Below are positions 34,560 through 38,967 of a stretch of DNA of 64,000 nt, one piece after another (positions within the stretch are counted from its first letter, which is position 1; the number at the start of each line of letters is the position of its first letter). A program made the translations under genes and the position numbers. Source of the DNA: Microvirga rosea (GTDB taxonomy: Bacteria > Pseudomonadota > Alphaproteobacteria > Rhizobiales > Beijerinckiaceae). A model generated the notes under the pieces. It was not told the DNA's origin, ran no database searches, and saw nothing but the letters and a program-made list of their open reading frames with translations. Where the stretch lies: the NCBI RefSeq assembly GCF_020595095.1, contig NZ_JAJDOP010000001.1, positions 434,001-498,000 of the forward strand, read 5' to 3'.

Positions 34560-35066
34560 TCATGAGCGGGAGTAGATGGCCGAGTTGCCGCTATGCTCCT
34601 TGACCTCGACGCTTTCCAGCCACACGCGTCCGCCGGTCTCCTTGTGCGCGTAGTCAGCGACGTAATCGAAGACATGCTTGGCGGTTGCCTCGCAACCGAC
34701 GGCCGGAAGAACACGCAGATCGATAAGGCCGTCCCGGTGCAAGGTCTCGAACCGGTGCAGCTCCGGATCGTCTTCGGCCACAAGCATGGTATGGTCGAAC
34801 ATGTGCTTGAGCCATTCCTTGACGGGCTTCAGGCCGCCGAAATCGAAGCACCAGTTGCGATCGTCCAGCTCATGGGTCGCGAAAACGAGGCGAAAAGCGA
34901 GAGCGTAGCCGTGGATCAGCCGGCAATGGGAATGGACGGCGCGCCACTGCCGAAAGCAGCAGGACAAGCCTTCATTGTGATCGTAGGTCTTCGTCGACCG
35001 ATAGATTTCCCGCGCGACAGATTTCGTGCTGGATTCGAGGGTCGTCATCGCAATGGGAACGTTCAT
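34560..35066 (-). CDS. 6-pyruvoyl-tetrahydropterin synthase / QueD-like protein
   Basis: About 168 residues of the PTPS/QueD T-fold family, which converts the folE product dihydroneopterin triphosphate. The divergent subgroup signature is visible: LSCCFRQWRAVHSHCRLIHG, then RNWCFDFGGLKPVKEWL, FDHTMLVAEDDPEL and ESVEVKEHSGNSAIY. The Cys in SHCRL is the probable catalytic cysteine. The usual zinc motif HGH reads HGY here, and the upstream His position is a Cys, so metal binding or specificity may differ. It is 37 nt downstream of folE and surely co-transcribed. No queC or queE is nearby, so a queuosine role is less likely than a free pterin product; this is inference. Confidence 0.82.
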   Translation of the reverse strand: MNVPIAMTTLESSTKSVAREIYRSTKTYDHNEGLSCCFRQWRAVHSHCRLIHGYALAFRLVFATHELDDRNWCFDFGGLKPVKEWLKHMFDHTMLVAEDDPELHRFETLHRDGLIDLRVLPAVGCEATAKHVFDYVADYAHKETGGRVWLESVEVKEHSGNSAIYSRS

Positions 35067-35103
35067 AGACTCTTGTCTCGCGATATCGTCGCTGGGTGAA
35101 AGG

Positions 35104-35778
35104 CTAGTCCGCATATCCGCGGTCGAGGGCGGTGCATTCGTCGATGAACTCTCTCTTGAGGTCCGAATGCGTGGACAGATCGCCCCAATAATAGGTGTTC
35201 ACCATCCGGCTGCGCCTTGTGGCACGCACGCCCCGTTGTGTCTTGCACATATGGACGGCGCTGATGCGTACGGCCAAGCCGCGCGGCTTGGTCATGTCGA
35301 GGATATACTGACCGATCTGCTTCACCATTTCCTCTTGGATCTGCAGCCGTGACGCGAAGTGCTCGACGATCCGGTCGTATTTCGACAGGCCGATGATCTT
35401 TCCGTCGGCAGCCGGGAGGATTCCGATGTAAGCGTGACCGTAAATGGGCATGAGATGATGCGCGCACATGGAGCGCACCTCGATCGGGCCCGTTACGATC
35501 AGCTGGTCATAGGACTGAACGTTATCGAATTCCGTGATCCGAGGCGGAGCCGTATAACGACCTTCAAGTATTTCCTCGACAAACATCTTGGCGACCCGCA
35601 TGGGCGTTTCGCGTGTGTTGTGGTCATTCCGATGGTCAATGCGAAGCACGTCGAACAGCTCTTCAAGCTTCTGTGCGGCCGCAGAAATCATGGCGGTCCG
35701 CTCTGCATCATCAAGAGGCTGGGAGAGGGTCTCGTTGCAAAGACGTGCCGGGTTTACCTCTCGTAGGTGAAAGTTCAT
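35104..35778 (-). CDS. folE: GTP cyclohydrolase I
   Basis: A 224-residue type I GTP cyclohydrolase, first step of pterin and folate synthesis: GTP to dihydroneopterin triphosphate plus formate. The zinc ligands are in SMCAHHLMP (Cys, His) and in HMCKTQRGV (Cys). GLSKYDRIVEHFASRLQIQE and TRETPMRVAKMF are further signature segments. It starts with ATG 35778, faces pruR-dcpA across an AT-rich gap and is followed by the PTPS-like gene. It may be a second folE devoted to signalling pterins rather than the housekeeping copy, which cannot be judged from this window. Confidence 0.95.
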   Translation of the reverse strand: MNFHLREVNPARLCNETLSQPLDDAERTAMISAAAQKLEELFDVLRIDHRNDHNTRETPMRVAKMFVEEILEGRYTAPPRITEFDNVQSYDQLIVTGPIEVRSMCAHHLMPIYGHAYIGILPAADGKIIGLSKYDRIVEHFASRLQIQEEMVKQIGQYILDMTKPRGLAVRISAVHMCKTQRGVRATRRSRMVNTYYWGDLSTHSDLKREFIDECTALDRGYAD

Positions 35779-35979
35779 GATTTACCTATAAAACCAAATC
35801 TTTAAGCAGTGTCCTAATCTCGTAACGTAGCACGAAATAATACGTAAGTGATATATGGGGCTAGGAGCTAGCTATAACCTCTTTTTGTTGCTATCAAATT
35901 TAGTATCGAAGCTTTATTGCAGAATTATGCCGATTAATAGAGCTGCGTATCTGGTAGGGGACCAGGGGTGGAGAAGAAG
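35779..35979. promoter_or_regulatory. divergent promoter region between folE and pruR
   Basis: About 200 nt that are clearly AT-richer than the surrounding coding DNA, as expected for two back-to-back promoters. An inverted repeat ACGTA-N11-TACGT spans 35825-35845 and is a candidate operator. GGTGGAG before pruR is its ribosome site. The shared region allows co-regulation of pterin synthesis and the pterin sensor. No regulator was identified. Confidence 0.5.
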
Positions 35980-36504
35980 ATGTCGGCCGCAAAATCGAAA
36001 CAAAGTATCATTTTAGCGTTCTTGAGCCTCCTGACTCTCGCGTTCTCCGGCATCGCGATGGCTGACCCGCTCGCGGCTCCTACCGAGAAACCGATCCTGA
36101 CGATCGGAGGGAATATCAGCGTCACGAACAAGGCCGGAGAAGCCCAGTTCGACAGGCCGATGCTCGAGGCTCTCGGCCTCGTGACGATCGAAACGACTAC
36201 CCCTTGGTATACGGGACCCGTGAAGTTCGAAGGCGTTCCCCTGGACAAGCTCATGAAGCTTGTGGGCGCCTCGGGCGAGAGAGCCGCTGTCGTTGCTCTC
36301 AACGACTACAGCAGCGAAATTCCGATTGCGGATTTCGCAAAGTACAATGTTATTCTCGCGCTCAAGCGCAACGGTGAATACATGCCGGTCAAAGACAAGG
36401 GCCCGCTCTTCGTCATTTATCCGTTCGACAGCCTTCCCGAATTGAAGAGCCAGACTTATTATGGCCGCGCTGTCTGGCAAGTCGCAAAGATTATCATCAA
36501 GTAA
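35980..36504 (+). CDS. pruR: PruR-like periplasmic pterin-binding protein (SUOX fold)
   Basis: A 174-residue exported protein. A signal peptide (about 1-28, AFSGIAMA-DP) is followed by an oxidoreductase molybdopterin-binding-like domain: FDRPMLEALGLVTIETTTPW, VKFEGVPLDKLMKLVGA, then FVIYPFDSLPELKSQTYYGR. In Agrobacterium, PruR of this type binds reduced pterins in the periplasm and controls the DcpA enzyme encoded next to it. Here it precedes a DcpA-like gene by 21 nt, the same order. ATG 35980 is chosen over GTG 35968 because GGTGGAG is correctly spaced. It lacks the heme, cofactor and dimerisation domains of sulfite oxidase, so a catalytic role is unlikely. Confidence 0.85.
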   Translation: MSAAKSKQSIILAFLSLLTLAFSGIAMADPLAAPTEKPILTIGGNISVTNKAGEAQFDRPMLEALGLVTIETTTPWYTGPVKFEGVPLDKLMKLVGASGERAAVVALNDYSSEIPIADFAKYNVILALKRNGEYMPVKDKGPLFVIYPFDSLPELKSQTYYGRAVWQVAKIIIK

Positions 36505-36525
36505 TCGCGGAGGCTGGCATACTCC

Positions 36526-38967
36526 ATGAGCTTCGACGGACCGTCGTTGTCGTTGCGAATACTCAAGGCCGCCCTTGCCATCGTCATCGGCTGCTTTCTG
36601 CTCTCTGCAGCCTATATTTCCAGCTTGGTGGTAGAGCGTCAGGAAGCGCTGAAACAGGTTTCCCGCTACAACACGTCCTGGCTCGCCAGCCAGGCCGTAT
36701 CCGAGTTCACCCGTCTCGAACAGCGTCTCAGCGAGTTCAATACGCCCGACAGCAATGTGGACAGCAGCGAAGTGGAGCTGCGCTTCGACATTCTGGTCAG
36801 CCGCGCCAAACTCCTCACCGATGGCGAATTCGAGGATTTCGTCGCGCGGGATCCCGAGCGGCAAGAAACGGTTCGTCTTCTCCGAGAGACGTTGGCGGGC
36901 GCGCAGCCGCTCATCCAGCGCCTGAACGATCCGGGAAACGCCCGTAAAGCGCTCGATCTTCTGCGACCCCTCGAAACAAAGGTCACGGCGCTGGCATCCG
37001 CAGCCAATCATTACGGGGCCCAGAGAGTCACGGAAGACCAGCATGAACTGATCCGCCTGCACTGGCTGTTCTCCAGCTTGGCGGCAGGTCTCATCGTCTG
37101 CGGGTTCATTCTTCTGGGGTTGCTGGGATGGCACAATCGGCTTCTGACTCGGGCGCATCATGACCTGCGCTTTCTCGCGGACAACCTGCAGCGGACATCC
37201 GAGGAGCTGAAGAAAGCCAACAAGGCTTTGGGCAACGCCTACGCGGAGCTTCAGCATCAGAACGGGGTCCTGCAGATCCAGGAGATCGAGCTCCGGACGC
37301 AGAACGAGCGCTTCAATGCGGCGCTCAACAACATGTCACACGGCCTGTGCATGGTGGACGGCACGGGCCATATCATCGTGTTCAATGCCCGGTTCGCAGA
37401 TCTGTTCGAGCTGGAGAGCTCGGTTCAACCCGGCGCGACCCTCAACGAGCTGATCGCCTATGCGGACGCTCGCGGACGCGAGGGAGCGGCGGCTCTGCGG
37501 CAGATCTGCGCCGAGCAGCACGAGCTCATTCAGAACCGACGCAGCGCGACCTTTATCCAAGGGCAGCCCGGCGGACGAACGATCGCCGTCTCCCATCAGC
37601 CGATGAATGACGGCGGCTGGGTGGCCACGTACGAAGACATCACGGAGCGTCGGCAGGCGGAAACGCAGATCGCCTATATGGCCCATCACGATGCCCTGAC
37701 GGACCTCGCCAACCGGGTCCTCTTCCGCGAACAGATGGAGCGGGCGCTTGCCCACTCGCACCGTCACGACACTCACGTGGCCGTCCTCTGTCTCGATCTC
37801 GACCGCTTCAAGGACGTGAACGATACGCTCGGGCACGAGACCGGAGATGCCCTGCTCAAGCTCGTGGCGCGGCGCCTTCAGGCCTGCGTTCGCGAGGAGG
37901 ATGTGGTGGCCCGTCTCGGGGGCGATGAATTCGCCATCCTGCAACTCTCCATTCATGAGCCGCACGAAAGCGCCGTCCTGGCGGCGCGGATCGTCGAGTC
38001 CCTTGGAGAGCCTTACGATATCGCCGGCCAGGAAATCGTGATCGGCACCAGCGTCGGAATCGCGCTGTCCGAAGGCGATCCCACACCGGATCAGCTTCTC
38101 AAACATGCCGACCTTGCGCTCTACCGGGCGAAGTCGGGCGGCCGCGGAACGTTTCGCTTCTTCGAGCCTGAGATGGATGCGCAGCTCCAGGCTCGGCGCG
38201 CGCTGGAGGTCGATCTCCGAAAGGCCTTGGCCAACAGCGAATTCGAGCTCTTTTATCAGCCACAGGTCGATATCCGCAAAAAGGAGATCACCGGCTACGA
38301 GGCCCTGCTGCGCTGGCGCCACCCGGAGCGCGGGATTGTTTCGCCCGCGGAGTTCATTCCCGTTGCCGAGGATATCGGACTGATTTCGCCGCTTGGGGAG
38401 TGGGTGATCCACGAGGCAAGCCGCGAGGCCGTCAATTGGCCCGCCAGCGTCAAGGTGGCCGTCAACCTGTCGCCCGTCCAGTTCCGCAACAAGAACCTCG
38501 TTCAATGCGTGAAAAACGCCCTGGCTGAATCGACCCTTTGTCCGAGCCGTCTCGAGCTGGAGATCACCGAGTCTGTCCTGCTTCAGGATAACGACACGAC
38601 CCTTGCGACCCTGCATCAGTTGCGCAAGCTCGGCGTCCGAATCGCCATGGACGATTTCGGTACCGGCTATTCATCCCTCAGCTATCTCCGCAGTTTTCCG
38701 TTCGACAAGATCAAGATCGACCAATCCTTCGTCCAAGGGCTATCGTCGCGTGCCGATTGTCTGGCCATTGTCCAATCGATCGCGGGCCTCGGGGCCAATC
38801 TCGGCATGAGCACCGTGGCAGAGGGCGTAGAGACGGAGGATCAGCTCGTGCAACTGCGCGCTGCGGGTTGCACGGAGGTCCAGGGCTACTACTTCGGACG
38901 CCCCAAGCCGGCCCATGAACTCGTTCATACGCTTGAGGTGTTTCAGCCGACCCGGGCATTCGGCTGA
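36526..38967 (+). CDS. dcpA: DcpA-like dual diguanylate cyclase/phosphodiesterase
   Basis: An 813-residue inner-membrane c-di-GMP enzyme. Domain order: membrane helix (about 12-32), periplasmic sensor region (33-180), second helix (183-205), coiled coil (about 210-255), PAS (about 262-375), GGDEF with intact LGGDEF (about 464-469) and EAL with EALLRW (about 591) and DDFGTGYSS. Both catalytic motifs are complete, so both activities are possible. In Agrobacterium, periplasmic PruR with bound pterin pushes the homologue towards c-di-GMP breakdown. The periplasmic loop here is the expected contact site for PruR encoded just upstream. A strong terminator follows the gene. Confidence 0.9.
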   Translation: MSFDGPSLSLRILKAALAIVIGCFLLSAAYISSLVVERQEALKQVSRYNTSWLASQAVSEFTRLEQRLSEFNTPDSNVDSSEVELRFDILVSRAKLLTDGEFEDFVARDPERQETVRLLRETLAGAQPLIQRLNDPGNARKALDLLRPLETKVTALASAANHYGAQRVTEDQHELIRLHWLFSSLAAGLIVCGFILLGLLGWHNRLLTRAHHDLRFLADNLQRTSEELKKANKALGNAYAELQHQNGVLQIQEIELRTQNERFNAALNNMSHGLCMVDGTGHIIVFNARFADLFELESSVQPGATLNELIAYADARGREGAAALRQICAEQHELIQNRRSATFIQGQPGGRTIAVSHQPMNDGGWVATYEDITERRQAETQIAYMAHHDALTDLANRVLFREQMERALAHSHRHDTHVAVLCLDLDRFKDVNDTLGHETGDALLKLVARRLQACVREEDVVARLGGDEFAILQLSIHEPHESAVLAARIVESLGEPYDIAGQEIVIGTSVGIALSEGDPTPDQLLKHADLALYRAKSGGRGTFRFFEPEMDAQLQARRALEVDLRKALANSEFELFYQPQVDIRKKEITGYEALLRWRHPERGIVSPAEFIPVAEDIGLISPLGEWVIHEASREAVNWPASVKVAVNLSPVQFRNKNLVQCVKNALAESTLCPSRLELEITESVLLQDNDTTLATLHQLRKLGVRIAMDDFGTGYSSLSYLRSFPFDKIKIDQSFVQGLSSRADCLAIVQSIAGLGANLGMSTVAEGVETEDQLVQLRAAGCTEVQGYYFGRPKPAHELVHTLEVFQPTRAFG

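Follow-up and report, generated by a model that had tools for sequence, protein, structure and literature searches.

Pterin synthesis genes beside a PruR-DcpA pair in Microvirga rosea and other Alphaproteobacteria suggest a pterin signalling module

A stretch of 64,000 nucleotides (nt) from the soil bacterium Microvirga rosea, hereafter the window (G000:C1:434001-498000 in a 5.0-Mb genome), contains two genes for pterin synthesis, folE and a gene for a PTPS-like enzyme that we call PTPS-w, facing away from two genes for a pterin receptor system, pruR and a dcpA-type gene (Table 1). A preliminary description of the window had placed the first pair on one strand and the second on the other, around a shared AT-rich promoter region of about 200 nt, and had suggested that the whole may be a self-contained circuit that makes a pterin signal and reads it. 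All four genes lie where that description put them and Pfam agrees with their assignment; the region between the pairs has the length and composition claimed for it, its role as a promoter being presumed. The four-gene arrangement is real and not due to chance, since the same gene set is both kept and reshuffled in relatives. We suggest, with a probability of roughly two in three, that the four genes together make up a single module for pterin signalling.

Table 1. Coordinates of the four genes and their intergenic region in the window, and of methyltransferase genes found after dcpA at other loci
Feature	Location	Strand	Evidence or remark
PTPS-like gene (PTPS-w)	34560..35066	-	PF01242, 53.4 bits; motif CxxxHGY
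folE, GTP cyclohydrolase I, divergent subfamily	35104..35778	-	PF01227, 148.2 bits
Divergent intergenic region, presumed shared promoter region	35779..35979		201 nt, 60.7% AT
pruR, pterin-binding protein, apparent signal peptide (by eye)	35980..36504	+	Oxidored_molyb, PF00174, 30.8 bits
dcpA-type gene (DcpA-type periplasmic domain, PAS, GGDEF, EAL)	36526..38967	+	Pfam
FkbM-type methyltransferase gene directly after dcpA	L039:12471-13175		PruR groups with Agrobacterium PruR
FkbM-type methyltransferase gene directly after dcpA	L174:8584-9291		PruR groups with Agrobacterium PruR
FkbM-type methyltransferase gene directly after dcpA	L179:8531-9244		PruR groups with Agrobacterium PruR
FkbM-type methyltransferase gene directly after dcpA	L180:8446-9135		PruR groups with Agrobacterium PruR
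FkbM-type methyltransferase gene directly after dcpA	L178:8455-9141		Paracoccus plasmid; folE2-pruR-dcpA

The PTPS-w frame as listed begins at an ATG (35114) that would overlap folE; the next in-frame ATG, at 35066, leaves a gap of 37 nt, and on the other strand pruR and dcpA are spaced by 21 nt. The window as a whole is 37.6% AT, and only 0.09% of its 201-nt segments (taken in steps of 10 nt) reach the AT content of the folE-pruR gap. The divergent gaps of five Microvirga relatives measure 205-342 nt and are 56-61% AT. A conserved operator was sought in the six aligned Microvirga gaps and rejected, clear similarity being confined to the window and locus L044, its nearest relative.

The receptor half of the locus is of a kind already known from PruR-DcpA and PruR-DTB operons. 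The window PruR matches the solved structure 7KOS, which is Agrobacterium PruR (PMC13259868), with an E-value of 2.3e-59 and identity at 94 of 146 positions (64%). Its residues N108, Y110 and W166 are spaced like the pterin-site residues 102, 104 and 160 of a 2026 review (PMC13259868); N108 and W166 are invariant in 17 aligned PruRs, while Y110 is found in 16 and replaced by Phe in the other. The translation has no cysteine at all, and so none that could ligate molybdenum. As expected of a DcpA, dcpA is encoded directly after pruR, and its motifs are intact (WX7E at residues 52-60, GGDEF at 465, EALLR at 592). PruR, the WX7E sensor and the two-gene operon are thus shared with the PruA-PruR-DcpA pathway of Agrobacterium tumefaciens, where tetrahydropterin is the ligand that PruR prefers (PMC13259868, section 7). 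The two differ in supply: Agrobacterium relies on the reductase PruA for its reduced pterin (PMC13259868), whereas the window has folE and PTPS-w beside the receptor. The window genome also encodes a second PruR (L040:7343-10005, on G000:C23), whose neighbour weakly matches a kinase-type sensor; no folE or PTPS occurs in the stretch fetched around it.

The possibility that the window folE is the only copy, needed for folate, had been raised in the preliminary description itself. A search of the genome found a second, housekeeping-type folE at G000:C38:82591-83124, adjoined by a hisI-like gene (read from sequence). This copy passes three of the four NCBIfam FolE cut-offs and the window FolE passes none (for TIGR00063, 132.4 against 181.6), so the window folE is probably not the housekeeping gene, and a folate role for it was judged unlikely. 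The window FolE, whose nearest named relative is that of Microvirga puerhi (89%), aligns to E. coli FolE and keeps the CxHH and VHxC stretches, which we take to have zinc-binding and catalytic roles.

PTPS-w is the sole PF01242 match in the genome, and its type is rare: it was found in 3 of the 387 genomes of our class sample at E <= 1e-20, the window genome counted. Across 18 PTPS-w proteins SHC, H54-G55-Y56, D93, H94 and E159 are invariant (numbered along the 170-residue stretch searched, 34563-35072), which gives the signature CxxxHGY; the invariant DH pair and Glu presumably have functional roles. An AlphaFold2 model of PTPS-w (pLDDT 87.7) has 36 PDB matches at E <= 0.001. Thirty-five of these bear the name QueD or PTPS; the remaining one, the uncharacterised 3jyg, is the best match and stands with E. 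coli QueD (4ntk) among the nearest solved folds. By Pfam and by the model PTPS-w thus has the fold of the COG0720 enzymes, but its signature differs from those published for PTPS-I (QueD, CxxxHGH), PTPS-II (CxxxxxHGH) and PTPS-III (ExxHGH) (PMC5041015).

A part in de novo queuosine synthesis was considered for PTPS-w, the only PTPS-family gene of the window genome, and judged unlikely there, because no full-length QueC was found. PTPS-w lies far below the QueD cut-off (29.9 against 89.25 bits), and the QueC profile matched the genome only in part, three times over some 55-60 of its positions, with 24.9 bits at best and with two of the three matches above the 22-bit cut-off. Searched alike, six of nine family genomes have a full-length QueC at 217-235 bits (G054, G058, G111, G086, G002 and G037); the three genomes of the window genus (G000, G032 and G099) yielded short partial matches and none of full length. 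Among 40 PTPS loci compared in this respect (39 of the 46 PTPS places from the class search, and L171), a QueE-like gene is in reach in 14 (L132-L144 and L169), and none of these 14 has a PruR. One of them, L139, has the Y-type motif of a second PTPS type, PTPS-Q, and that motif alone is therefore no marker of a PruR module.

The pairing of synthesis genes and receptor genes recurs in rearranged forms, which suggests a single circuit in which the signal is made and read. The preliminary description had let its interpretation depend on conservation in relatives, and the four-gene arrangement is indeed conserved there. Counting the window, 36 modules combine pruR with a cyclohydrolase; they show 13 gene-order strings, or 12 layouts once a downstream second folE is ignored: the layout of the window accounts for 11 of the 36, and 11 further layouts for the rest. 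These are folE-ptps-dcpA divergent from pruR (4 modules), pruR-dcpA convergent with folE-ptps (5, in Bradyrhizobium), the series reductase, folK, pruR, kinase, folE, EamA (8, in Azospirillum and L066), and single cases in Belnapia (L065), Rhizobium oryziradicis (L076), L056, L214, L229, L117, L118 and L178. The same positions are also taken by different parts. The cyclohydrolase may be a window-type folE, a housekeeping-type folE (L117, L118) or FolE2, annotated as such before pruR on the Paracoccus plasmid of L178; the PTPS may be PTPS-w or PTPS-Q, and the sensor DcpA or a histidine kinase. The kinase loci of the Azospirillum type (L071 scanned with Pfam, the others assigned by similarity) belong to the PruR-DTB systems, in which PruR adjoins a kinase whose periplasmic domain is of the DcpA type (PMC13259868, section 8).

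A further exchange concerns the enzyme after the cyclohydrolase. We examined 113 loci for a PTPS and for a short-chain dehydrogenase/reductase (SDR) with the motif TGX3RXG; among the 35 with pruR and a cyclohydrolase, 24 have the former, 9 the latter, none both and two neither (L118 and L178). With the window added, 25 of 36 have a PTPS and 9 a FolM-like reductase, again with none having both and two neither. These counts are not independent, because the nine reductase cases are eight Azospirillum-type loci and L229. Two of the nine SDRs were scanned, and both scored best to dihydromonapterin reductase, just below its cut-off (221.5 and 236.4 against 249).

Some further neighbourhoods may be recorded here. 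The window module, with its folE-PTPS-w, is flanked by mipA; in two genomes of the window genus mipA instead adjoins pruR-dcpA-PTPS-Q, and the stretch fetched contains no folE. Aminobacter and Paroceanicella plasmids carry a PTPS divergent from pruR-dcpA, and six more plasmid stretches with PruR or a window-type folE have other neighbours or no annotation. On an Aminobacter plasmid (L181:4067-6435) the neighbours of pruR-dcpA are an acyl-homoserine-lactone synthase gene and one for an autoinducer-binding regulator. A plasmid record of Klebsiella pneumoniae (L175) has a PruR-like gene paired with an EAL gene, and no gene in the 12 kb shown is annotated for pterin synthesis. In Bradyrhizobium lablabi CCBAU 23086 (L081) folE and PTPS seem to be fragmented, by frameshifts or by sequencing errors.

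How common the linkage is depends on the gene from which one counts. Starting from folE, a non-exhaustive search of the collection with five aligned FolE proteins and two short peptide patterns gave 43 loci, titled Microvirga, Lichenibacterium, Azospirillum, Bradyrhizobium, Rhizobium, Belnapia, Roseomonas (L066) or only broadly as Alphaproteobacteria. In 26 of these pruR lies within about 6 kb, a share that is silent on how often PruR is linked, since the loci were collected through folE. Starting from PruR, 20 of 119 family genomes have a match and nine have a PruR close to that of the window (>190 bits); folE, PTPS or both adjoin this close-kin PruR in eight of the nine, the exception being G037. 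In the class sample 79 of 387 genomes have a PruR at E <= 1e-15. These 79 hold 99 GTP cyclohydrolase I matches, fragments included; one lies within 4 kb of pruR in three of the genomes (G000, G167, G498), a PTPS within 1.1 kb in three (G000, G167, G189), and one or the other in four in total. In the order sample PruR was found at E <= 1e-40 in 88 of 347 genomes. Linkage is thus a minority trait among PruR genomes overall, common in the close kin of the window and in a particular region of the PruR tree. A 103-row tree has a clade of 48 rows (support only 86/80) that contains 29 of the 30 linked rows, 17 unlinked ones and two solved structures; in a 63-row tree, many rows of which were collected through folE, 33 of the 35 rows of one clade are linked. 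Both trees omit rows without a known neighbourhood, and the larger also some near-copies.

It might be argued that the neighbourhood has no function and merely records shared ancestry or a transferred piece of chromosome. Many of the 43 loci do belong to close relatives (Microvirga, Azospirillum, Bradyrhizobium), so that their counts are not independent. Against this stand the 12 layouts, the differing enzyme families in the same roles and the alternation of PTPS with reductase. On the 63-row tree, too, linkage takes 4 changes, compared with a mean of 21.0 after shuffling, a difference to which near-copies and folE-led collecting contribute. We regard this explanation as highly improbable.

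PTPS enzymes yield tetrahydropterins through internal redox transfer. We therefore posit that FolE would convert GTP to dihydroneopterin triphosphate, and that the PTPS-like enzyme would make a tetrahydropterin from it without a separate reductase, through the internal redox transfer typical of its family. PruR would then bind the locally made tetrahydropterin, PTPS taking the place of the reductase. Either a PTPS or a reductase would therefore deliver the form that Agrobacterium PruR prefers, and this expectation is the main ground for the mechanism. We infer further that the product would be exported, bound by PruR and reported as a change in the attachment signal cyclic di-GMP.

Several observations weigh against such a dedicated circuit. 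Eight of the 43 folE loci have a DcpA-type periplasmic domain without pruR (L047, L050, L051, L052, L059, L061, L067, L082), and nine have neither PruR nor sensor (L046, L048, L049, L053, L055, L057, L060, L073, L086); contig ends truncate four of the nine (L046, L049, L060, L073), and the FolE match of L086 is only partial. The class genomes G183 and G266 encode FolE proteins 41-42% identical to that of the window, and the stretches fetched around them (L121, L122) show no PruR; in G310 the folE-PTPS pair is on a contig other than that of its PruR. In the order sample 60 of 104 PruR places were fetched, mostly the best-scoring and some cut by contig ends (the window genome itself contributes two of the 104), and six of the 60 are linked (L211, L212, L213, L214, L216, L229); in the subclade to which Agrobacterium PruR belongs, none of the four loci seen is linked. 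PTPS-w and PTPS-Q (the latter with YxxxHGH or FxxxHGH in the copies inspected) both miss the PTPS-I, II and III signatures, and their product is uncertain for that reason. The window genome has, moreover, a PruA-like SDR at G000:C33:440540-441262, with TGX3RXG (TGGARRIG), YX3K (YSLTK) and a score of 376.9 against 281 to PRK09134, the family to which we guess that PruA belongs, as well as a match to the biopterin-dependent hydroxylases (128.1 bits), so that other sources and uses of tetrahydropterin exist. Finally, a contig of a metagenome-assembled genome (L073:2308-6849) carries PTPS-w, an MFS-like transporter gene (by eye) preceding folE, folE itself, an IMP dehydrogenase-like gene and a QueE-like gene (by eye), and no PruR; it is perhaps a 7-deazapurine cluster.

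These last observations could mean that FolE and PTPS-w supply an enzyme, such as a biopterin-dependent hydroxylase, or a 7-deazapurine, while PruR-DcpA monitors the common pool or hears the product of the PruA-like enzyme. The SDR, the second PruR and the hydroxylase match keep this explanation alive, and L073 lends it an example for 7-deazapurines. Against it, the hydroxylase and SDR genes sit on another contig, the window genome lacks a full-length QueC and the synthesis genes remain with pruR across many rearrangements; we consider it unlikely. The made-and-read circuit of the preliminary description is accordingly supported by the conserved linkage, by a folE that is not the sole copy and by the unlikelihood of a queuosine role, and the circuit may not be self-contained, given the PruA-like reductase and the hydroxylase match elsewhere in the genome.

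A different use of the pterin is brought to mind by a catalase gene that faces dcpA convergently in both the window and L044. The pterin could be a redox buffer or antioxidant, with PruR-DcpA gauging its oxidation state or controlling its production and attachment signalling secondary, and pterins are indeed discussed as antioxidants and possible redox sensors (PMC13259868). Among 43 scanned loci katE was detected only in L044; as this is the nearest relative of the window, the catalase neighbour is no conserved part of the module, and a redox role strikes us as decidedly improbable.

Candidate exporter genes occur near folE in some related loci. In the eight Azospirillum-type loci folE is followed by an EamA gene, and Belnapia (L065) has a partial EamA match (32%) placed between folE and pruR. 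Twelve of the 43 loci, all from Microvirga, have a PACE gene after folE (Pfam BTP in L047); there it accompanies extra folE copies, some on plasmids (L046-L052, L055, L057, L059, L061, L082). Of these 12, eight have PTPS-Q, seven dcpA and none pruR, which makes the PACE exporter a lead only and is a further point against the module. No exporter-like gene lies between the four genes of the window. We put forward only tentatively, as a possibility we ourselves doubt somewhat, that complete modules of synthase, exporter and receptor exist, arranged like those of quorum systems, with FolE and PTPS or a FolM-like reductase as the source of a module-specific tetrahydropterin, an EamA or PACE protein as the exporter, and PruR with DcpA or a kinase as the reader; according to the 2026 review, no system for pterin efflux has yet been identified (PMC13259868). 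The loci grouped with 7KOS (L039, L174, L179, L180) have, unlike the window, an FkbM-type gene after dcpA. As the PruA-dependent pterin of Agrobacterium is proposed to be 2'-O-methylmonapterin (PMC13259868), this gene is a candidate pterin methyltransferase.

That the supply genes beside the receptor seemed new to the preliminary description agrees with the literature searched, at the level of titles and the beginnings of abstracts among the hits listed, where no folE or PTPS beside pruR-dcpA is described; the primary 2024 PruR paper and Phillips 2012, which lay outside this search, may hold such a description. The abstract and sections 5-9 of the 2026 review do not mention them, and the account of PruR-DTB given there names no folE, reductase, FolK or EamA gene as a neighbour (PMC13259868). 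In the parts seen of a survey of Azospirillum GGDEF/EAL proteins DcpA is named and pterin comes up in the title of a reference; GTP cyclohydrolase is absent (PMC5845226). The closest parallel on the synthesis side is the Photorhabdus pepteridine cluster, which unites a predicted GTP cyclohydrolase I, PTPS, pteridine reductase and pteridine pyrophosphokinase, the first two being required for pepteridine A; it differs in its nonribosomal peptide synthetase-like and pyruvate-dehydrogenase-like genes and in its product, and PruR and DcpA are not mentioned in the portion consulted (PMC5384830).

The 2026 review, in the parts cited here, leaves open which pterin controls PruR and how it crosses the membrane, and calls the source of tetrahydropterin in bacteria without PruA unclear (PMC13259868). 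Clusters that join the synthesis enzymes to the receptor, some with a candidate exporter, make the questions of ligand and route directly testable, and the alternation of PTPS with reductase suggests how such systems might manage without PruA. If the more tentative reading, of complete modules with an exporter, is true, pterins in these bacteria would be dedicated cell-to-cell or self signals and not by-products of folate metabolism.

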